From: an uncultured Oscillospiraceae bacterium
Lineage (GTDB): Bacteria > Bacillota > Clostridia > Oscillospirales > Oscillospiraceae
Direction of reading: 5' to 3'
Length of the DNA: 58,568 nt
NCBI GenBank assembly: GCA_944387125.1
Contig: CALXDT010000055.1
Coordinates: 1 to 58,568 of the forward strand
A program made the translations under genes and the position numbers. Shown here one piece after another: positions 18,703-28,488 of the stretch. How positions within the stretch are numbered: the stretch's first letter is position 1; every line of letters begins with the position of its first letter. The notes under the pieces were generated by a model, which saw only the letters and a program-made list of their open reading frames with translations, searched no databases and was not told the DNA's origin.

Positions 18703-18804
18703 TGAGCCTTATCAAGAGCGGTGGAGGGAACGGCCCGATGAAACCCGGCAACCTGTCCGAAAGGGCAAGGTGCCAAATCCGGCGGCAAACGAAAGATGAG
18801 GATT
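18703..18804 (+). ncRNA. SAM-I (S-box) riboswitch
   Basis: The S-box core is recognisable. It begins CTTATCAAGAG, continues GGTGGAGGGAACGGCCCGAT, GAAACCCGGCAACC and GGTGCCAA, and closes with GAAAGATGAG pairing back to the start. Binding of S-adenosylmethionine stabilises this fold and lets the downstream terminator form, so metK is turned off when its product is abundant. Confidence 0.95.
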
Positions 18805-18873: not shown

Positions 18874-20028
18874 ATGGAAAAAAGACTGTTTACCTCTGAA
18901 TGCGTGACCAACGGCCATCCCGACAAAGTGGCAGATTCCATCTCCGACGCCATTTTGGATGCCTGCCTGCAGCAGGATTCCCTGTCCCGGGTGGCCTGCG
19001 AAACCATGGTCACTACAAATTTCTGCCTGATCTGCGGTGAGATCACCACCAAGGCGCAGGTGGATTATCAGGCAGTTGCCCGGGAGACCATCCGCAGCAT
19101 CGGCTATATCTACCCTGAGAACGAATTTGACGCGGATTCGGTAGAGATCCAGTGCCGGATTCATACCCAGTCCGCAGACATTGCCCTGGGCACCAATGAG
19201 GAAGTGTGCGGCGCCGGAGACCAGGGAATGATGTTCGGCGGCGCCTGCACCCAGACCCCGGAGCTGATGCCGCTGCCCGCCGCGCTGTCCCGGGCGCTGT
19301 GCAGACGCATGACCCAGTGTGTTCAGTCCACGGATCTTCTGCGGCCGGACGGAAAGGCGCAGGTGACGGTGGAGTATGATGAAAGCGGAGCGGTTGTGGG
19401 CATTGATACCGTGGTGGTATCGATTATGCACAGCCCGGATTTTGAAATGAGCCAGCTGCGCCGGTATATCCGGGAGGGCGTGATCGCTCCGGTGCTGAAG
19501 GATTATGGGTTTGATATCGGCCAGGTGGCGCATATTCATATCAATCCCACAGGCAATTTTGTTATCGGCGGCCCCAATGGGGATACCGGTCTTACCGGCC
19601 GAAAGATCATTGTGGATACCTACGGCGGCTATTTCTCCCACGGCGGCGGCGCCTTCTCCGGGAAGGACCCCACCAAGGTGGATCGCAGCGCAACCTATAT
19701 GGCGCGCTACATGGCAAAGAACCTGGTGGCGGCCGGTCTTGCCACCCAGGTGCAGGTTCAGCTGGCCTATGCCATCGGTGTTGCGGAGCCGGTTTCTCTG
19801 CGGGTGGACAGCTTCGGCACCGGCCTGATCAGCGATGAGCAGATGACTGCCTTACTGCGAAAAACCTGCGATCTGACCCCTGCGGGGATCATAAAAAAGC
19901 TGGATCTGCGCCGTCCCATCTATACCGCCACTGCCAGGGAAGGGCATTTCGGATTGCCGGACCGTCCCTGGGAGCGGACGGATCTGGCGGAGGAATTCCG
20001 CAAGGCGCTTTCTGCGGACGGTGTGTAA
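18874..20028 (+). CDS. metK: S-adenosylmethionine synthetase
   Basis: A 384-residue cytosolic enzyme making S-adenosylmethionine from methionine and ATP. Landmarks: FTSECVTNGHPDKVADSISDAILD at the N-terminus (methionine/ATP site), GAGDQGMMFGGAC near residue 113 (family GAGDQGxMFGYA), and NPTGNFVIGGPNGDTGLTGRKIIVDTYGG near 230. The phosphate-binding GGGAFSGKDPTKVDRSATYMARYMAKNLVAAGLA follows. The family GYA reads GGA here, a mild variant. Full length. Expression is controlled by the S-box riboswitch upstream; a strong terminator follows. Confidence 0.97.
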   Translation: MEKRLFTSECVTNGHPDKVADSISDAILDACLQQDSLSRVACETMVTTNFCLICGEITTKAQVDYQAVARETIRSIGYIYPENEFDADSVEIQCRIHTQSADIALGTNEEVCGAGDQGMMFGGACTQTPELMPLPAALSRALCRRMTQCVQSTDLLRPDGKAQVTVEYDESGAVVGIDTVVVSIMHSPDFEMSQLRRYIREGVIAPVLKDYGFDIGQVAHIHINPTGNFVIGGPNGDTGLTGRKIIVDTYGGYFSHGGGAFSGKDPTKVDRSATYMARYMAKNLVAAGLATQVQVQLAYAIGVAEPVSLRVDSFGTGLISDEQMTALLRKTCDLTPAGIIKKLDLRRPIYTATAREGHFGLPDRPWERTDLAEEFRKALSADGV

Positions 20029-20161: not shown

Positions 20162-20602
20162 TTATTTGGCAGATGTCAAATAGGATTTTAAATACTGAAT
20201 CGCTTCCCGATAGCCTTCCAAGCCATGGCCTTTGATGGTCTTGATGCAGGCCATTCCGGCATAGGAGATTTGCCGAAACGGCTCCCGGGAATCCACATCA
20301 GAGATATGAACCTCCACAGCTGGGACAGACACAGCTTTCAAAGCGTCCAGGATGGCGACAGAGGTATGGGTGTAGGCGGCGGGATTGATGACGATGCCGT
20401 CTGCGGTTCCGTAAGCCCACTGGATCTTGTCCACCAGGTCGCCTTCGTGGTTGGACTGGTACTGGATTACCTCCAACCCCTCCTCCCGGGCGGTATCCTC
20501 CAGCAGCCGGAGCAGATCCGAGAAGGTTCCGGTTCCGTAGATTCCCGGCTCCCGGATCCCCAGCATATTCAGGTTCGGTCCGTTGATTACCAGTATTTTC
20601 AT
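20162..20602 (-). CDS. aroQ: 3-dehydroquinate dehydratase, type II
   Basis: A 146-residue type II dehydroquinase, the third step of the shikimate pathway (3-dehydroquinate to 3-dehydroshikimate), a small dodecameric cytosolic enzyme. KILVINGPNLNMLGIREPGIYGTGTFSDLL carries the catalytic Tyr of the flexible loop. NPAAYTHTSVAILDALK and VEVHISDVDSREPFRQISYAG carry the conserved His and the substrate-binding loop. GGAGG fixes the start at 20602. Last gene of the aro operon, 109 bases after aroEK; this short gap shows nothing notable. Confidence 0.95.
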   Translation of the reverse strand: MKILVINGPNLNMLGIREPGIYGTGTFSDLLRLLEDTAREEGLEVIQYQSNHEGDLVDKIQWAYGTADGIVINPAAYTHTSVAILDALKAVSVPAVEVHISDVDSREPFRQISYAGMACIKTIKGHGLEGYREAIQYLKSYLTSAK

Positions 20603-20711
20603 TCCACATCCTCCATATTTCTTGATGTGTGCGGAACAACGCAGAAGTCCCTGCGAGCCAAGGCGTTCCGCTTGTTTTTTGCGTGATTCGGGAGCAAAGG
20701 CTTTGCTTGCT

Positions 20712-21971
20712 TCAGAGGAAAAACCGTTCCGCCGGATCCGCCGGGGCGGGAGCTTCAAGGCAGGCTAAAATCGCTTTGACCGTATCCTCCGGGGTGCCGT
20801 TGTTATCGATCACATAATCGGAAAAGGACTGATACCACGGCTTCCGCTGGGCGTATATCCGGGTCAGGGGAATGGACTCAGATAAGGGACGCCCCTGGGT
20901 GGGCAGCAGAGAAAGATCCCGTGTCAGCCAGAAAATCCTGCCGTTCTGGTGGAGCAGCGGATAATTTTCCGGGCGGGTGACACAGCCGCCTCCGGTGGCA
21001 ATGATCAGCCCGGAGGATTTCCCCAGCCGCGCCAGCACCTGGGTCTCCCAACGGCGGAAGCCGGTTTCTCCTTCCAGGGCGAAAATCCGGGGGATGGGCA
21101 TGCCGGCCGATTCCGCAATCTGCTGATCCGCGTCTACCACCGGCGCATCCAGAGCCTGTCCTAAAAGAGCGGCAATGGTTGACTTTCCGCAGCCGGGCAT
21201 ACCGATGAGGATGATATTTTCCATATGGGCGGAGAGCTTGCGGTGAATGGCGGCAATGACGTCCTCATCCATGGTCTGCCCGGTGAAATACTCCGCCGAT
21301 TCCTTGGCCTGCGCCACCAGCATCCAAAGCCCGTTGGCGTTCGGCAGTCCCAGCTGTTCCGCATCCAGAAGCAGCTGGGTTCGGGAGGGATTGTAGATCA
21401 CGTCCAGCACCCCTTCCAGATGGGGGAAGTCCTTCAGATCCACAGGGGCTGCTCCGGTATTGGGGTACATCCCCACCGGAGTGGTGTTGACGATCACTGC
21501 CGCGTCCCGGTGCAGGTGCAGGTTTTGGTAATTGTTTTTTCCGGAGCGGGAAATGACAATTGCCTGGGCGCCCAGATCCTCCAGCGACTTCACAGCCGTT
21601 CCGGAGGTGCCGCCGCTGCCCAGAACCAGCACCTTTTTTCCGGACACTTCCATGCCGCTGTGCCGCACCAGAGAGGTAAACCCGTAATAATCCGTATTAT
21701 GGCCGAAGAGCGTTCCGTCCGGCCTCCGAACAATGGTGTTGACAGCGTTCATTTTTTGGGCGGTGGGGGACAGCGCGTCCAGGAACGGGATCACATCCCT
21801 TTTGTAAGGGATGGTCACATTGAGGCCGGTAAAGTCTCCGTGCTTCAGAAAGGCTTCCAGTTCCTCCGGCTCTTTTTCATAGAGCGCATAGGAATAGGCT
21901 CCCAGATCCCTGTGGATCCGGGGAGAATAGCTGTGACCCAGCTTTCGTCCCAGCAATCCGCACCGCATCAA
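20712..21971 (-). CDS. aroE-aroK: Fused shikimate dehydrogenase-shikimate kinase
   Basis: A 419-residue fusion that would carry out two consecutive steps. Residues 1 to about 248 are shikimate dehydrogenase: GRKLGHSYSPRIHRDLGAYSY (substrate motif SxSP), LNVTIPYK with the catalytic Lys, NTDYYGF, and the NADPH site VLGSGGTSGTAVKSL. From about 250 the shikimate kinase follows: IILIGMPGCGKSTIAALLG (Walker A), DADQQIAESAGMPI, and IATGGGCVTRPEN (substrate-binding GGG). AroE and AroK are usually separate proteins. It overlaps pheA by four bases (ATGA). Confidence 0.93.
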   Translation of the reverse strand: MMRCGLLGRKLGHSYSPRIHRDLGAYSYALYEKEPEELEAFLKHGDFTGLNVTIPYKRDVIPFLDALSPTAQKMNAVNTIVRRPDGTLFGHNTDYYGFTSLVRHSGMEVSGKKVLVLGSGGTSGTAVKSLEDLGAQAIVISRSGKNNYQNLHLHRDAAVIVNTTPVGMYPNTGAAPVDLKDFPHLEGVLDVIYNPSRTQLLLDAEQLGLPNANGLWMLVAQAKESAEYFTGQTMDEDVIAAIHRKLSAHMENIILIGMPGCGKSTIAALLGQALDAPVVDADQQIAESAGMPIPRIFALEGETGFRRWETQVLARLGKSSGLIIATGGGCVTRPENYPLLHQNGRIFWLTRDLSLLPTQGRPLSESIPLTRIYAQRKPWYQSFSDYVIDNNGTPEDTVKAILACLEAPAPADPAERFFL

Positions 21972-23110
21972 ACCACCTCAGTATAGCTGCCCAGATATTT
22001 GAATTCCTCGCACAGCTCGTCCAGCTCACACATCAGCTGTACAAACTCTTCGGAGTAAATGGAGGTTTCCAAATCGAAATAGAACATGAACTCAAACTCC
22101 CGGTCGGGGATGGGACGGGATTCCAGCTTGGTCACGTTGATGCCCAGGGTGTACAGCCGCGCCAGCACTTTATACAGAGAGCCGGGACGGTGGCTGAGGA
22201 TCATCATGATGCTGGTCTTGTCGGAACCGGGGTAAATCTCCAGGTTTTTGCTGATACAAATGAATCGGGTGCGGTTGTTGCCCTTATCCTGGACGGAGGC
22301 GGCCAGGCATTCCAGGCCGTACAGCTCGGCGCAGGAGCGGCTGCTGAGGGCTGCCACATCCCGGCGCCCGGATTTGGCCACCATTTCCGCGGCAATGGCG
22401 GTATTTCCCGCGGGGATCACATTGACGCCCTGAAGCTGCGCCAGGAAATCGCCGCACTGGCTGATGGCCTGCTCGTGAGAGTAGATCTCCTTAATATCCG
22501 AAAGGGCAGTACCGGGGTTCACCAGCAGATTGTGATCCACCTTCAAACGGAAGGTGCGGACAATGGAAAAATTATGGTGGATCATCAGGTCGTAGACCTT
22601 CTTTACGGAACCGGCGGTGGAGTTTTCAATGGGCAGGATGCCGTACTGACACATCCCCTGCTCAATGGCGGAAAATACCGCCTCGAAGTTTTTGAAATAG
22701 AGGATAAAGGGATCCTTGAAGATCTTCTCACAGGCAATTTGCGAATAGGCGCCCTCCACCCCCTGGCAGGCTACCATAGGCGCCTGGGGGAACAGATTGG
22801 GCGTATTCTCAATGGCTTGGGTAATCTGCCGGTACAGAGGGCTGATGGCTCCGTTACGCTTGCTCTGGTAGCTGCGGCTCAGCTCAAACAGCATGGAATA
22901 CAGCACCCGGGTATAGTTGGCCATCTCCGGCCCTGCTTTTTTTGCCACATCCTGGAGCTTATCCCGCTCCCGGGCAGGGTGTAATATGGGCAGCTGATGG
23001 GCTTTTTTGTAGTCGGCAATCCGGGCGGCTACGTCCATTCGCGCGTCAAACAGCTGCACAAGCTGATCGTCGATTCTGTCCATTTCCTGGCGCAGTTCAT
23101 TCAGATCCAT
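21968..23110 (-). CDS. pheA: Chorismate mutase/prephenate dehydratase (P-protein)
   Basis: A 380-residue bifunctional enzyme of phenylalanine synthesis. Residues 1-85 are an AroQ-class chorismate mutase (DLNELRQEMDRIDDQLVQLFDARMDVAARIADYK). About 105-285 is prephenate dehydratase (VACQGVEGAYSQIACEKIF, GILPIENSTAGSVKKVYDLM, and the catalytic TRF motif in NNRTRFICIS). About 295-380 is an ACT domain (RPGSLYKVLARLYTLGINVTKLESRPI) that in the family binds Phe for feedback inhibition. It overlaps both neighbouring genes. Confidence 0.95.
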   Translation of the reverse strand: MDLNELRQEMDRIDDQLVQLFDARMDVAARIADYKKAHQLPILHPARERDKLQDVAKKAGPEMANYTRVLYSMLFELSRSYQSKRNGAISPLYRQITQAIENTPNLFPQAPMVACQGVEGAYSQIACEKIFKDPFILYFKNFEAVFSAIEQGMCQYGILPIENSTAGSVKKVYDLMIHHNFSIVRTFRLKVDHNLLVNPGTALSDIKEIYSHEQAISQCGDFLAQLQGVNVIPAGNTAIAAEMVAKSGRRDVAALSSRSCAELYGLECLAASVQDKGNNRTRFICISKNLEIYPGSDKTSIMMILSHRPGSLYKVLARLYTLGINVTKLESRPIPDREFEFMFYFDLETSIYSEEFVQLMCELDELCEEFKYLGSYTEVV

Positions 23111-24200
23111 GGTTCTTCCTCCTGTCTGTCTGGGTATTGCCCAGTATCATATCAAAAATCGCAATGGCCGCGGCGGCTTCCACTACCGGTACGGCTCTGG
23201 GGACAATGCAGGGGTCATGACGCCCCCGGACGGTCAGGGACTTCGGCGCCTGCCGGCTGAGACTGACGCTTTGCTGGGATCTGGCAATGGAGGGGGTTGG
23301 TTTGACGGACACCCGCAACAGCACCGGCATTCCGTTGGTGATCCCTCCCAGAATCCCGCCGGCGCAGTTGGTTTCCGTGCGGATCTGCCCGTTTTTCAGA
23401 ATAAAGGGGTCATTGCACTGGCTGCCCCGCATGCGGGCCGCCTGAGATCCGGCGCCGAATTCCACGGCCTTTACCGCCGGGATGCCGTAGACAATGGACG
23501 CAATGCGGCTTTCCACTCCGCCGAACATCGGCTCGCCCAAACCGGCCGGAAGTCCGGTAACGGCGCACTGGATAGCGCCGCCCAGGCTGTCCCCGTGGGC
23601 TTTGACCAGGGCGATCTGCTCCTGCATGGCCTTCCCGGCCTGGGGAGAAAGGGTGGGGAAGGCGCTGTCAACGGCATCCAGCTGCGGATCCAGGGGATCA
23701 AAGTCTTCGTCCTGAACGGTGCCGATGCCGGCGATATGGGCGCCGATTCGGATTCCCTTCAGCGCCAGCCACTGCTTGCACAGACCTCCGGCAATGCACA
23801 GGGGGGCTGTCAGACGGCCGGAAAAGTGCCCGCCGCCTGCCGCGTCCTGAAAACCGCCGTATTTGATCTGAGCGGTATAGTCCGCATGGCCGGGACGGGG
23901 GCAGTCGCGAAGCTCCGAATAGTCCCGGGAGCGGGTATTGCAGTTTCGGATCACCGCGGCAATGGGCGCGCCGCAGGTAAAGCCGTCCAATATTCCCGAG
24001 AGGAATTCCGGACGATCCTCCTCCTTCCGGGGGGTGGACCAATCGCCCTGCCCGGGAGCACGGCGGTTCAGAAACACTTGCAGAGCATCCGCATCCACAG
24101 GCAGCCCCGCGGGGATCCCGTCCAAGGTCATACCGATGGCTGCTCCGTGGGACTGCCCGAAAATGGACAGCTTCAGATGTTCACCGTAGGTACTGCTCAT
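23097..24200 (-). CDS. aroC: Chorismate synthase
   Basis: A 367-residue FMN-dependent enzyme making chorismate from 5-enolpyruvylshikimate 3-phosphate. The first signature is GEHLKLSIFGQSHGAAIGMTLDGIPAGLP. FGAGSQAARMRGSQCNDPF near residue 250 and TNCAGGILGGITNGMPV near 280 are family motifs, and RGRHDPCIVPRAVPVVEAAAAI is the third. Normal length. It overlaps aroA by 20 bases and pheA by 14, indicating tight translational coupling. Confidence 0.95.
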   Translation of the reverse strand: MSSTYGEHLKLSIFGQSHGAAIGMTLDGIPAGLPVDADALQVFLNRRAPGQGDWSTPRKEEDRPEFLSGILDGFTCGAPIAAVIRNCNTRSRDYSELRDCPRPGHADYTAQIKYGGFQDAAGGGHFSGRLTAPLCIAGGLCKQWLALKGIRIGAHIAGIGTVQDEDFDPLDPQLDAVDSAFPTLSPQAGKAMQEQIALVKAHGDSLGGAIQCAVTGLPAGLGEPMFGGVESRIASIVYGIPAVKAVEFGAGSQAARMRGSQCNDPFILKNGQIRTETNCAGGILGGITNGMPVLLRVSVKPTPSIARSQQSVSLSRQAPKSLTVRGRHDPCIVPRAVPVVEAAAAIAIFDMILGNTQTDRRKNHGSE

Positions 24201-25374
24201 ATTTGCCTCCTAACCGGCAGTATTCCTGCCAAAACTGGGGATAGGACTTTTCCGTGCACTGGGCGCCTGTAATTGTCACCGGCTCCGGGCAGACGGTAGC
24301 GGCGATGGCGGCGGACATGGCAATGCGATGATCGTTGGCACTGTCAACGGTTCCGCCCCGGAGCGCGGCGGGAAATACGGTGAGGCTGTTTTCATCCGCC
24401 ACCGCGCTGCCGCCCAGAGCCTGGAGCATGGCCATGACGGAAGCGACCCGGTCGGATTCTTTCAGACGAAGGCGGCGAATCTGGGTAAAGACCGCACCGT
24501 GCCTGCAGGCGGCGGCTACCGCTAAAATGGGAACCAGATCGGGAATGTCTCCGGCGGCAATGACTGCGGGGCGCTCCAGGGCGGGCAGCAGATCCAGAAT
24601 CGCCCGGTCTCCCTGAAGGGAGTCCCGGCGGAGGTTTTCTACCCTTACGGGATTTCCCAGCGCCTTGGCTGTTAGAAAGAAGGCGGCGTTGCTCCAATCT
24701 CCCTCCACCAGAATCTCCCCGGGGGAACGAAAGACACCGGGGCAGACCCGAAGATTGTCCGTGTGCCGGCCGAAGGCCTTCATCACGTCCTGGGTCATGG
24801 AAATATAGGGTCGGGATTCCACATTACCGATGAGCCGGATGTGGCTTTCCTCCGGAAGCAGCGCCAAAGCCAGAAGCAGGCCGGTGATAAACTGACTGGA
24901 GATGCTTCCGTCCAGGGTATACTCGCCCGGCCGCAGCCGTCCCTGACACCGGAGGGTATTTGCTGTGGGGCGGGACAGGGCGCAGCCCATCCGCTCCATC
25001 TCCTCCCACAGGGGGGATAAGGGCCGCTGGGGAAGCCTGCCCTCCATGTGGAAAACGCCGTCCACACCCAGGGCGCCCAGGATAGGCAGGAGAAACCGCA
25101 GGGTGGAGCCGCTGTCCCGACAGGGAAGTTCTGCCGCAGCCGGGAGCCGCTGTACGGGACAGACCCGGTATCCCTGCGCCGTCCGGGCAATTTGCGCGCC
25201 CAGGGCTTGCAGGCAGGCGGCGGTAGCGTCCATATCCCGGTTGGTCTGGGGACAGATCAAATCTGTGGGCGCGTCGGCAAAGGCGGCGCAGATAAGCAGA
25301 CGATGCGCCTGGGATTTGGATGGGATGGCGCGGACGGTTCCGGCGAGCTTGCCGGGGGTGATGGTAATGTCCAT
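24181..25374 (-). CDS. aroA: 3-phosphoshikimate 1-carboxyvinyltransferase (EPSP synthase)
   Basis: A 397-residue enzyme joining shikimate-3-phosphate and phosphoenolpyruvate. MDITITPGKLAGTVRAIPSKSQAHRLLICAAFA has the catalytic Lys and SKS motif. DSGSTLRFLLPILGALG, DGSISSQFITGLLLALALLP and IRRLRLKESDRVASVMAMLQALGG are further EPSP synthase signatures, and DHRIAMSAAIA ends the core. AGGAAGGT precedes the start, which lies one base after the aroB stop. Whether it is glyphosate-tolerant (class II) cannot be settled by eye. Confidence 0.95.
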   Translation of the reverse strand: MDITITPGKLAGTVRAIPSKSQAHRLLICAAFADAPTDLICPQTNRDMDATAACLQALGAQIARTAQGYRVCPVQRLPAAAELPCRDSGSTLRFLLPILGALGVDGVFHMEGRLPQRPLSPLWEEMERMGCALSRPTANTLRCQGRLRPGEYTLDGSISSQFITGLLLALALLPEESHIRLIGNVESRPYISMTQDVMKAFGRHTDNLRVCPGVFRSPGEILVEGDWSNAAFFLTAKALGNPVRVENLRRDSLQGDRAILDLLPALERPAVIAAGDIPDLVPILAVAAACRHGAVFTQIRRLRLKESDRVASVMAMLQALGGSAVADENSLTVFPAALRGGTVDSANDHRIAMSAAIAATVCPEPVTITGAQCTEKSYPQFWQEYCRLGGKYEQYLR

Positions 25375-25375
25375 A

Positions 25376-26428
25376 TCAAAGACCTTCCTGGATCCAGGAT
25401 TGTACCTGCTCCACAGGTGTGGGCAGGATGGCACAGCAGCCAATGCGCCGGGGAACAATCAGATTCACCGTGCCGCCGGAGCGCTTTTTGTCTGAAAGCG
25501 CATAGGAATACAACGTTTCCGCCGGGTATTTCGTATCAATGGGGAGGCCAAACCGGGTCAGAAGATCCAGAATCCGGGCGCCGTCGGACGCAGGGCAGAT
25601 GCCGCGCTTCATAGCGGCCCGGGTGATCATGGCAATCCCGGCGGCAACAGCCATGCCGTGGGAGACGGAGAAACTGCTGGCGGCTTCGATGCCGTGGCCG
25701 ATGGTGTGCCCCAGGTTCAGCTTCATCCGGGCGCCGGTATCAAACTCATCTTCCATTACCACATTCCGCTTCAGCTCTACGCACCGGGCGATCACCTGCT
25801 CCAAATCAAAGGAGGCGCCGGTTTTTTCCAAAAGGGAGAAAAGCTGCGGATCATAGAGAATGCCGTATTTGATCACCTCTCCGCAGCCGTCCAGAAAGAC
25901 CTGGGGAGGCAGGGTGGCGAGGGTATCGGTATCGCACAGCACCAAGGAAGGCTGGTAAAAGGCGCCTGCCAGATTCTTGCCTGCCGGCAGATCAATGGCA
26001 GTCTTTCCGCCTACGGAGGAGTCCACCGCTGCCAGCAGTGTGGTGGGAATCTGGATCAGCCGGATTCCCCGAAGGTAGCAGGCGGCGGCAAAGCCGGAAA
26101 GATCCCCGGTGACGCCCCCTCCCAGGGCGACGACCAGATCCCGGCGGGTCAGCCTGTTTTCCGCCAAATGGTTTAAAAGCTCCAAAAAGACGCTGCCGTT
26201 TTTGCTGGATTCTCCGGCAGGAAAGGTGTAATGGATCACCGAAAAGCCTGCCTGCTCCAAGCTGCGGCGTGCGGCCGCTCCATACAGGGGAAAGACCCGG
26301 CTGTCGCTGACGATACACACCGTTTCCCCGCCGGTAAGGGCGGCGGCAGCCTCCCCCAGGCCGGACAAAAGACCCGGACCGATGTGAACGGCGTATTCTT
26401 TTGAGGCATTGACCACAACGGTTTTCAT
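25376..26428 (-). CDS. aroB: 3-dehydroquinate synthase
   Basis: A 350-residue NAD- and metal-dependent enzyme forming 3-dehydroquinate from DAHP, the second step of the pathway. GGGVTGDLSGFAAACYLRGIRLIQIPTTLLAAVDSSVGGKTAIDLPAGKNLAGAFYQP contains the NAD/phosphate site and the metal-site region. LNLGHTIGHGIEAAS gives two metal-binding His residues. The start overlaps the tyrA stop (ATGA) and has GGAGG just upstream. A longer in-frame extension is the shadow of tyrA. Confidence 0.95.
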   Translation of the reverse strand: MKTVVVNASKEYAVHIGPGLLSGLGEAAAALTGGETVCIVSDSRVFPLYGAAARRSLEQAGFSVIHYTFPAGESSKNGSVFLELLNHLAENRLTRRDLVVALGGGVTGDLSGFAAACYLRGIRLIQIPTTLLAAVDSSVGGKTAIDLPAGKNLAGAFYQPSLVLCDTDTLATLPPQVFLDGCGEVIKYGILYDPQLFSLLEKTGASFDLEQVIARCVELKRNVVMEDEFDTGARMKLNLGHTIGHGIEAASSFSVSHGMAVAAGIAMITRAAMKRGICPASDGARILDLLTRFGLPIDTKYPAETLYSYALSDKKRSGGTVNLIVPRRIGCCAILPTPVEQVQSWIQEGL

Positions 26429-27255
26429 CCGTCCACCTCCTCTTTGCGCTTCTTGCCTTCTTCCAGCAGTGCGGTAAGGGCGGGTTCGTCTCCTTCGGCA
26501 ATGGCACTGCGGTAGGCGCTGAGACTTTGTATGTATTGATCCAGCTCGAACAGTACGTTTTCTTTGTTTTCCAGGAACAGCTCTGCCCACATCCGGGAAT
26601 TCAGCCAGGCCACCCGGGTCAGATCCTTGTAGCTGCCTGCGGAGAAGCCTTTGTGGGTACGGGCGGTGGGGGACTTGATAAAGGCATTGCTGAGAATATG
26701 GGGCACCTGAGAGGTAAAGGCGATCATTTTGTCGTGATTTTCCGCGGTGGTAACAGAGAAGGAGCCAAAATGACAGGGCTTCAGTGCTTCCTTCACCCGA
26801 TCCAGCAGATAGATATCGTCGAACACCGGGGGAACCAAAATCATAGGCGCGCCCTCAAACAGATCCGCCCGGCTGTATTTGAATCCGGAGAACTGGGAGC
26901 CGGCCATGGGATGTCCTCCCACAAAGGTAAACCCATAGCGCTGAGCCAGAGGGAAGCACCGGCTGCAGATCTTCTTTTTGATGCCGCAGCAGTCCAGAAC
27001 CAGAGCTGTTTTGGAGATGCTCCCGGCGTGCGCCTCCAGCCAGGAGGCGCTGCCATCGGGGTAGATGGCCAGCAGGATCAACGCACACCGGGAGATCAGG
27101 GAATCTTCCAGCCTTCCGTGAACGGCTCCGGCCAGAATGGCGAAGCTGAGCATATTTTCGTCCTTTTCCGCGGCGTAGACGGTGTGCCCGGCCAGGGCAT
27201 AGGCTCTGGCCAGGGAACCGCCGATGAGCCCCAGACCCAGGATGCCTACATTCAT
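26425..27255 (-). CDS. tyrA: Prephenate dehydrogenase
   Basis: A 276-residue NAD-dependent enzyme of tyrosine synthesis. The Rossmann motif is GILGLGLIGGSLARAYALAGHTV; the catalytic region is FVGGHPMAGSQFSGF with the conserved His near residue 120. SPTARTHKGFSAGSYKDLTRVAWLNSRMWAELFLEN is typical of the C-terminal helical domain. No ACT domain is attached, unlike the Bacillus enzyme, so feedback control may rest on the leader attenuator. It overlaps aroF and aroB by four bases each. Confidence 0.93.
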   Translation of the reverse strand: MNVGILGLGLIGGSLARAYALAGHTVYAAEKDENMLSFAILAGAVHGRLEDSLISRCALILLAIYPDGSASWLEAHAGSISKTALVLDCCGIKKKICSRCFPLAQRYGFTFVGGHPMAGSQFSGFKYSRADLFEGAPMILVPPVFDDIYLLDRVKEALKPCHFGSFSVTTAENHDKMIAFTSQVPHILSNAFIKSPTARTHKGFSAGSYKDLTRVAWLNSRMWAELFLENKENVLFELDQYIQSLSAYRSAIAEGDEPALTALLEEGKKRKEEVDG

Positions 27256-28253
27256 ACGATTGCCTCCCGGATTTTCCGCACCTTATGACATACCTCGTCA
27301 AATTGGTGAGGCGTCAGGGACTGGGCGCCGTCGCACAGGGCGCAGGCGGGGTTGTTGTGCACCTCGATCATAATGCCGTCGGCACCGGCGGCGGTGGCGG
27401 CGTAGGCCATAGGCGCAACCAGATCTGCCTTGCCGGTGGCATGGCTGGGATCCACCACCACAGGAAGATGGGTCAGCTTATGCAGCACCGAAACCGCGGA
27501 CAGATCCAGGGTGTTCCGGGTGGCGGTTTCAAAGGTACGGATACCCCGCTCGCAGAGGATCACCTGCTCATTGCCTTCGCTCATGATGTACTCGGCGCTC
27601 ATCAAAAGCTCCTGCAGAGTGTTGGCCAGTCCCCGCTTCAGCAGAATGGGCTTTTGGGTCTTCCCCAGTTCCTTCAAAAGATCGAAGTTCTGCATATTTC
27701 TGGCGCCCACCTGGATGATATCCACATCCGCGAACATATCCAGGGCGGTAATGTTCATGATCTCCGTGACAATGGGAAGACCGGTGGCCTTCTTGGCTTC
27801 CAGCAGCAGGCGGATCCCTTCTCCGTTCATGCCCTGAAAGGCGTAGGGGGAGGTACGGGGCTTAAAGGCGCCGCCCCGGAGGATGTTGGCGCCGGATTCC
27901 TTTACCGCGCGGGCAACGGCGATGATCTGCTCCTCGGACTCCACGGAACAGGGACCTGCGATCATGGCAAAATATCCGCCGCCGATGCGCACGTCTCCGG
28001 CCTGGACGATGGTATCCTTTGGATGGAACTTCCGGTTTGCCTGCTTATACGGCTCCGAAACCCGCTTGACCGATTCTACCATGTCCAGGCTTTTCAGCAG
28101 ATCCATATCTACCCGGCTGGTATCGCCGATGAGCCCCAGGACCGTGACTTCCGTACCCTTGGAGATGTGAACGTCCAAATTCATATGCTTGAGCCAATCG
28201 ACCAGATGCTGCATCTGCGCGGGGGTGGTACCAGGCTTGAGGATTGCAATCAT
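27252..28253 (-). CDS. aroF: DAHP synthase with N-terminal ferredoxin-like domain
   Basis: A 333-residue 3-deoxy-7-phosphoheptulonate synthase, the first step of aromatic synthesis from phosphoenolpyruvate and erythrose-4-phosphate. Residues 1-70 form the ferredoxin-like regulatory domain known from the Thermotoga-type enzyme (IAILKPGTTPAQMQHLVDWLKHMNLDVHIS). The barrel follows with FAMIAGPCSVESEEQI, GGAFKPRTSPYAFQG, QVGARNMQNFDLLKELG, LLKRG and VVDPSHATGKADLV. TAGGAG lies before the ATG at 28253. First structural gene of the operon, directly downstream of the attenuator. Confidence 0.95.
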   Translation of the reverse strand: MIAILKPGTTPAQMQHLVDWLKHMNLDVHISKGTEVTVLGLIGDTSRVDMDLLKSLDMVESVKRVSEPYKQANRKFHPKDTIVQAGDVRIGGGYFAMIAGPCSVESEEQIIAVARAVKESGANILRGGAFKPRTSPYAFQGMNGEGIRLLLEAKKATGLPIVTEIMNITALDMFADVDIIQVGARNMQNFDLLKELGKTQKPILLKRGLANTLQELLMSAEYIMSEGNEQVILCERGIRTFETATRNTLDLSAVSVLHKLTHLPVVVDPSHATGKADLVAPMAYAATAAGADGIMIEVHNNPACALCDGAQSLTPHQFDEVCHKVRKIREAIV

Positions 28254-28265
28254 AATAAACACTCC

Positions 28266-28307
28266 TAACAAAAAATAGGCGCCGCACGGGCAATTCGTGC
28301 GGCGCCT
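28266..28307 (-). terminator. Attenuator terminator of the aro operon
   Basis: A perfect 12-bp stem (28277-28288 with 28296-28307, AGGCGCCGCACG arms) followed on the minus strand by TATTTTTTGTT. It lies between the leader peptide and aroF, so it would stop transcription before the operon unless an alternative fold forms. Confidence 0.88.
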
Positions 28308-28354
28308 GAAAAAACGGTTTTGCAGTCTCGAACATTTTACTGCAGCACAAATTG

Positions 28355-28385
28355 CTATTACTTTTTCCGGGGAAAAAAGTAATAG
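28355..28385 (-). promoter_or_regulatory. Leader hairpin over the Tyr/Phe codons
   Basis: In the leader RNA a perfect 12-bp stem forms between 28385-28374 and 28366-28355 (CTATTACTTTTT arms). Its first arm is made of the Tyr14-Phe18 codons of the leader peptide, its second of the last codons, the stop and five bases beyond. A ribosome stalled at these codons would open it. Further pairings (28321-28326 with 28339-28344, and CTGCAGT with ACTGCAG in the peptide region) offer competing folds. Confidence 0.65.
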
Positions 28386-28426
28386 TAGCTAAAGAAAAAG
28401 CTGGCTGCAGTGCTGGTGTACATCAT
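28358..28426 (-). CDS. Phe/Tyr leader peptide of the aro operon
   Basis: A 22-codon open frame beginning ATG ATG, with GAGAGG eight bases upstream. Its centre reads FFFSYYYFF: eight aromatic residues out of nine, followed by PRKK and a stop. It sits between a near-ideal promoter and a terminator ahead of eight aromatic-biosynthesis genes. This is the layout of leader peptides that sense charged tRNA by ribosome stalling, as for pheA and trp operons of enteric bacteria. There are no Trp codons, so the signal should be Phe and Tyr supply. The peptide has no other evident role. Confidence 0.85.
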   Translation of the reverse strand: MMYTSTAASFFFSYYYFFPRKK

Positions 28427-28459
28427 AGCGGAAACCTCTCTGTCCGGGAACTGTAGACA

Positions 28460-28488
28460 AGTATACCACGAGCGGCGGATGATTGCAA
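28460..28488 (-). promoter_or_regulatory. aro operon promoter
   Basis: Minus strand TTGCAA (28483-28488), 17-base spacer, TATACT (28460-28465). Transcription would start near 28453, about 27 bases before the leader-peptide ATG. Confidence 0.8.

Follow-up and report, generated by a model that had tools for sequence, protein, structure and literature searches.

Our results indicate that the region upstream of aroF on the minus strand of a 58,568-nucleotide stretch of DNA from an uncultured Oscillospiraceae bacterium (hereafter the window, meaning the whole stretch that was analysed) is very probably a classical ribosome-mediated transcription attenuator, which would sense charged tRNA-Phe and charged tRNA-Tyr. 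They support the attenuation reading proposed in an earlier note on this DNA, and sequence and comparison establish the parts of the locus, their conservation and the mutually exclusive pairings between them.

Organization of the leader and the aro operon

The elements lie ahead of aroF, between 28488 and 28270 of the minus strand, in the order promoter, Shine-Dalgarno, 22-codon ORF, codon hairpin and terminator. The features are as follows.

28460–28488, minus: sigma-70-type promoter, TTGCAA-17-TATACT, with TG before the -10 (consensus scan, 9/12 matches)
28435–28441, minus: Shine-Dalgarno-like AGAGAGG (read off the sequence)
28358–28426, minus: leader ORF MMYTSTAASFFFSYYYFFPRKK*, 22 codons, stop included (translation; conserved among relatives)
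28404–28411, minus: segment 1, ACTGCAGC, within the leader ORF before FFF (folding; pairs with 28346–28339 as the protector)
28373–28399, minus: regulatory codon run FFFSYYYFF, eight aromatic codons (leader translation, alignment, folding)
28355–28385, minus: codon hairpin, 14 predicted pairs (folding)
28342–28355, minus: segment 2, GCAATTTGTGC(T)GC, antiterminator 5' strand, starting two bases past the leader stop
28290–28303, minus: segment 3, GC(C)GCACGAATTGC, antiterminator 3' strand, inside the terminator 5' arm and loop
28270–28307, minus: intrinsic terminator, 12 pairs (28307–28277), then ATTTTTT (sequence scan and co-variation)
27252–28253, minus: aroF, DAHP synthase, first gene of the operon (NCBIfam PRK08673 and TIGR01361, above cut-off)
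20162–27255, minus: tyrA, aroB, aroA, aroC, pheA, aroE-aroK fusion and aroQ (ORFs and NCBIfam matches)

The observation of leader and attenuator parts in the earlier note is thereby confirmed: the Shine-Dalgarno-like AGAGAGG at 28441–28435 corresponds to the ribosome site that it had placed before the leader, translation of 28426–28358 agrees with its 22-codon frame with the FFFSYYYFF core, and the 12-bp terminator with a T-run stands before aroF. Two descriptions needed correction. The promoter, called ideal, is present but only good (9/12 of the consensus), and boxes resembling it are also visible in relatives; the hairpin, said to be of 12 bp and built from exactly the Tyr/Phe codons, exists but has 14 predicted pairs, is made of the YYFF codons plus Lys-Lys-stop, and leaves the first FFF outside. 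The leader RNA (28453–28266) folds better than 200/200 shuffles (z -5.8).

Downstream of the leader there are eight tightly packed genes, aroF to aroQ. They bear out the eight-gene aromatic operon of the earlier note, several of them with NCBIfam matches below the curated cut-off, and their spacing suggests that they are co-transcribed. The genome assembly to which the window belongs has 164 contigs and is 85% complete; the best match to a named record is Candidatus Faecousia faecavium, with an aroF 90% identical. Elsewhere in the window, a SAM riboswitch (RF00162, 79.8 bits, 18706–18802, plus strand) is the sole Rfam match at gathering level, directly followed by an ORF (18874–20028) which by eye resembles S-adenosylmethionine synthetase, an ordinary arrangement.

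A predicted stall-exposed antiterminator

Folding revealed an explicit antiterminator, in which GCAATTTGTGC at the leader stop pairs with GCACGAATTGC in the terminator 5' arm and loop; 28355–28342 and 28303–28290 form 11 continuous pairs and two more. The earlier note had expected stalling to free CTGCAGT segments for this role. That a ribosome on any aromatic codon exposes an antiterminator holds in our model, but the pairing is between segments 2 and 3, and the CTGCAGT candidate was rejected, as folding shows that pair to be the opposing protector helix.

We propose that, when Phe and Tyr are both supplied, the ribosome would reach the leader stop and cover segment 2, and the terminator would form before aroF. 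When Phe-tRNA or Tyr-tRNA is short, the ribosome would stall on one of the eight Phe/Tyr codons, covering segment 1, and segment 2 would then pair with segment 3 before the terminator 3' arm is made, letting the polymerase enter all eight genes. If the leader is not translated, segment 2 should be kept occupied by segment 1 and the codon hairpin, and the terminator would form. Stalling, read-through, the response to each amino acid and dual sensing are what we infer from the arrangement of these elements.

The switch was modelled by folding growing transcripts with the ribosome footprint masked, a procedure that leaves out kinetics and assumes a 13-nt footprint starting with the first base of the codon in the A site. 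In RNAs ending at 28290 or 28285, the antiterminator had a probability of 0.95–1.00 with the A site at any of the nine positions of FFFSYYYFF, and of 0.08 and 0.01 with the A site at the leader stop codon. On the non-aromatic Pro or Arg codons that follow the run it was still 0.997, and on the two Lys codons it went from 0.79 to 0.49. The complete terminator prevailed in every modelled case, so that the outcome would depend on the order in which the RNA is made, as it does for known attenuators. With no ribosome, the protector helix was dominant (0.985) in RNA ending at 28300, the antiterminator was briefly favoured at equilibrium in RNA ending at 28290–28286, and protector and terminator returned from 28282 on; a protector helix equally strong was found in 1/200 shuffles of the window's leader. 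The idea that the codon hairpin must open was not borne out, since in the model most of the hairpin persists when a ribosome is held on the first Phe codons, and the antiterminator forms even so; opening is not strictly needed. By computation, then, the window holds a short ORF with codons for the products of the operon, an intrinsic terminator, and an antiterminator exclusive with it that is exposed by a stall and covered at the stop.

Conservation of the proposed attenuator

The near set consisted of the window and the 80 nearest aroF loci, and a leader was scored where an ORF beginning with ATG in the 250 nt upstream had 6 or more Phe/Tyr in a ten-residue stretch. The search for aromatic codon runs upstream of orthologous aroF genes, whose absence the earlier note had named as refuting evidence, found them strongly conserved: 60/81 of these loci have an aromatic leader, against 11/1620 shuffles and 1/81 opposite strands, and class-wide the figure is 59/87. 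Most Bacteroidales-labelled contigs are among the 21/81 near loci that miss the leader score; the misses also include leaders that start with GTG (L033), lie farther away (L046) or are weaker (L063), and loci with no visible leader, such as L032, L044, L050, L057 and L071. Two contigs labelled Bacteroidales/Bacteroidaceae (L042 and L067) do carry an aromatic leader and a terminator before aroF, which may reflect horizontal transfer or misbinning.

Within the genus, aroF was matched in 54/61 genomes and the attenuator was found less than 100 nt upstream in 49/54. The five exceptions comprise one locus cut by a contig end with the terminator visible (G436), two partial matches (G432 and G425), and G400 and G424, in which a divergent aroF (L276 and L277) is preceded by promoter-like sequence and a terminator with no visible leader ORF. 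Two further attenuator-model matches in the genus, both in G443 (E 2.7e-5 and 2.0e-4), look false.

In an alignment of 36 close sequences, inspected by eye, gaps in the leader are mostly multiples of three (the exceptions, L013, L031 and L033, use a different stop), and the first triplet of the codon run has Phe in some sequences where others have Tyr. Across these sequences the terminator has double changes at 7/12 pairs, a count reached by 48/500 shuffles, and 44 double-changed cells, where shuffles average 12.3 and 0/500 have as many. For the antiterminator, 89.8% of cells are paired (shuffles average 87.8, and slid versions do not exceed 54.3), and 4 pairs have double changes, which 39/500 shuffles equalled, so co-variation within this close clade is modest. 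The codon hairpin, with 99.3% of cells paired, is nearly invariant and so gives no co-variation evidence.

A class-wide search matched aroF in 290/392 genomes. The class sample of 89 upstream regions (29 of the best matches and 60 picked among the matches listed, spread over families) was partly hand-picked, and is thus neither random nor complete; its score, which admitted Phe/Tyr/Trp, any start codon and 450 nt, was looser than that of the near set and gives false positives, L060 being plainly a repeat protein. By this score an aromatic leader precedes aroF in 59/87 loci with at least 200 nt, against 21/870 shuffles and 7/87 opposite strands, and 28/87 are without one.

When the two sets were pooled, 122/170 loci had a leader and 117/122 of these a terminator. 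Among the 117, the locus's own segment-2 pairing beat at least 95/100 shuffled terminator arms in 75, and its own arm ranked in the best 5% against arms of other lineages in 61 (31/36 close loci, 30/81 others). The protector helix is weaker than the antiterminator, reaching the 5% level in 7/34 close loci and 30/81 others. In folding, the antiterminator was higher by more than 0.2 in the stalled than in the stop state in 31/36 close and 67/81 other loci, a contrast which is partly trivial because less RNA is free when the ribosome sits at the stop. Family f5, which belongs to the same order, has another kind of ORF (RFTSFGYPRFFWAWDFCAC) upstream of aroF in L157, L159, L171 and L189; these ORFs resemble one another and are alike among species, and the shuffled-arm pairing test gave no convincing antiterminator there.

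T-boxes and leaders on other genes

In the usual account, Firmicutes gauge amino-acid supply through T-boxes or TRAP. The earlier note was right to draw this contrast: the window's genome has 14 T-box matches, 5 of them above the curated cut-off. Genes were assigned to all but two of them, and include pheST, valS, metG, thrS, asnB, ilvA, those for a TrpX-type transporter protein, a TrpB-like enzyme and indolepyruvate oxidoreductase alpha, and an acyl-CoA ligase gene together with one for a sodium symporter. By eye, the Rfam alignments give the specifiers as the Phe codon UUC for pheST and the Trp codon UGG for the TrpX gene, both as expected; indolepyruvate oxidoreductase has UUC, and the ligase-symporter unit has the Tyr codon UAC. 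At one locus, L091 (G000:C153:6168-12305), tandem T-box units stand with UAC before an acyl-CoA ligase and symporter and UUC before indolepyruvate oxidoreductase, perhaps serving aromatic-acid salvage.

Searching 101 genomes of the family with the attenuator model gave 40 matches in 35 genomes. We inspected 39, all except the window's own: 27 lie before aroF, 5 before other genes with a clear leader, 1 before aroB, and 6 are leaderless. These last (E 0.0006 to 0.008), with no leader and no aromatic gene, look false; some true matches are equally weak, and therefore every match was judged by leader and gene. The aromatic leaders on other genes precede pheA (L207), phenylacetate-CoA ligase (L205 and L209), a symporter (L204) that shares 65% identity with the symporter following the Tyr T-box in the window's genome, and a TrpX-like (ABC) transporter protein (L227), which suggests an exchange of leaders and T-boxes on related genes. 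Leader control is not the rule for phenylacetate-CoA ligase: a leader-like ORF scoring at least 6 was found at 2/30 loci (L243, the original, in G510, and L249), the upstream stretch at some other ligase loci resembles by eye the end of the preceding gene, and a T-box was above threshold at 1/20 loci checked. The aroB match (L208, G469) lies behind a short ORF with a weak leader, YWRRFGF, perhaps of mixed specificity, and a nearby segment can by eye pair with the following terminator.

Tryptophan codons and trpE

The leader has no Trp codons, and this matches the absence of anthranilate synthase (TIGR00564, trpE), for which no match was found in 61/61 genus genomes, the window's included (19/61 of high quality), by a search that matched 14/14 control genomes. 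The operon can thus supply Phe and Tyr and not, by the usual route, Trp. Given this lack, and with a TrpB-like enzyme and a TrpX-type transporter behind T-boxes, this genus probably imports tryptophan or makes it from indole. Among the 58 class genomes that have leaders, Trp codons were commoner with trpE (10/21) than without (5/37; Fisher p 0.011, a test that ignores kinship); the table reads 10 with both, 5 with a Trp codon only, 11 with trpE only and 32 with neither, one of the leader Trp residues falling outside the aromatic run. Counting full-length trpE alone gave p 0.023, kinship again ignored, and the link is suggestive only.

Alternative explanations

The strongest competitor accepts the attenuator and has it answer one amino acid, one tRNA becoming limiting first and the other codons being kept mainly for hairpin and spacing. 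A hairpin arm that fixes the YYFF codons nearly invariantly could indeed explain their retention by structure. Nevertheless FFF lies outside the hairpin, Phe and Tyr swap there, and distant leaders without the codon hairpin still mix both, so we consider this reading unlikely. It is quite improbable that the leader works mainly by translational coupling or reinitiation onto aroF instead of by transcription termination: the short ORF does sit close upstream of aroF, and reinitiation at leader genes has reportedly been proposed, but about 100 nt and a strong conserved terminator intervene between the leader stop and aroF, which has its own ribosome site.

Sensing by a T-box or another riboswitch-like RNA, with no translation involved, is more improbable still. 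T-boxes are frequent in this genome, as the 14 matches attest, but none matches RF00230 at the aroF leader, and none of the 4227 Rfam models reaches its gathering score in the leader region, where only sub-threshold, chance-like matches occur. As the gathering threshold misses T-boxes (9/14 in the window's genome are below it), the scan of 40 of the 89 class aroF upstream loci was repeated at E up to 0.001, and again no T-box was found in those 40; we reject membership of the aroF leader in the T-box or any other Rfam family. Least credible of all is a chance codon run with hairpins, or an unregulated upstream terminator, for although T-rich runs readily translate as Phe/Tyr and 3/5000 dinucleotide shuffles of the 250-nt stretch ahead of aroF yield 7 aromatic residues in 10, 0/5000 yield the 8 in 10 of the real leader, and conservation, controls and co-variation contradict it.

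Significance

A broader proposal, for which we regard the case as evenly balanced, is that an attenuator sensing Phe and Tyr at aroF belongs to a class-wide aromatic regulon of Clostridia. Phe/Tyr leader attenuators would stand before the DAHP synthase operon, pheA, phenylacetate-CoA ligase (for salvage of arylacetates), a sodium symporter and a TrpX-like transporter, trading places with T-boxes on related genes, and the codon set would track the aromatic amino acids still made, Trp codons being kept mainly with trpE. Here a lineage of gut Clostridia retains T-boxes at genes such as pheST, yet its aromatic pathway begins behind a leader that is probably translated, and comparable leaders occur again in many other families of the class. 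This offers a natural test case of ribosome-based and tRNA-binding sensors for one amino acid in the same cell. The leader codons are also a clue for annotating transporters and salvage genes, and the leaders examined match no Rfam family and are thus easily overlooked in annotation.

Comparison with known systems

The enteric trp and pheA operons are controlled by leader-peptide attenuators. The aroF locus resembles them in its short ORF with runs of regulated codons, its predicted antiterminator and terminator helices, with a candidate protector helix, and its matching-pathway operon. It differs in belonging to another bacterial class, in mixing Phe and Tyr codons, in placing one leader before the whole shikimate pathway and both terminal branches, and in that no Rfam leader model matches it. 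T-box leaders sense uncharged tRNA ahead of amino-acid genes, and this genome has them at pheST and elsewhere; they differ in needing no translated leader, and none matches at aroF.

Another known system is uORFC-13-1, described as a uORF with Phe codon(s) and then a terminator before the DAHP synthase gene aroF in Acholeplasma (PMC8632094); by that description it differs in being Phe only and in being reported just from Acholeplasma and environmental sequences. Corynebacterium glutamicum aroF also has a predicted Phe/Tyr leader peptide, with Phe-Tyr-Phe (PMC4046766), which, compared by description, comes from an actinobacterium and has a shorter codon run. For Phe or Tyr operons of Actinobacteria, PMC1262725 reports no conserved RNA structure, and for Firmicutes it states that no tRNA-synthetase gene was known to be under classical attenuation.

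Leader-peptide attenuation in Firmicutes has precedents in the His leader of bacilli at hisS/hisZ (PMC2965389) and in the Leu-rich ilv leader of Staphylococcus aureus, for which support has been obtained (PMC5794164); both serve other amino acids in other classes of Firmicutes. The authors of the former remark that, to their knowledge, leader peptides had not been shown beyond Proteobacteria and Actinobacteria, except for ermC (PMC2965389). We found no report of a Clostridia aroF leader in the open-licence literature, which is weak evidence of absence. Leader-peptide attenuation is a known kind of control of which this instance appears to be undescribed; with its function predicted from sequence, it shows wide conservation in the sampled Clostridia together with dual codon specificity and an explicit switch.
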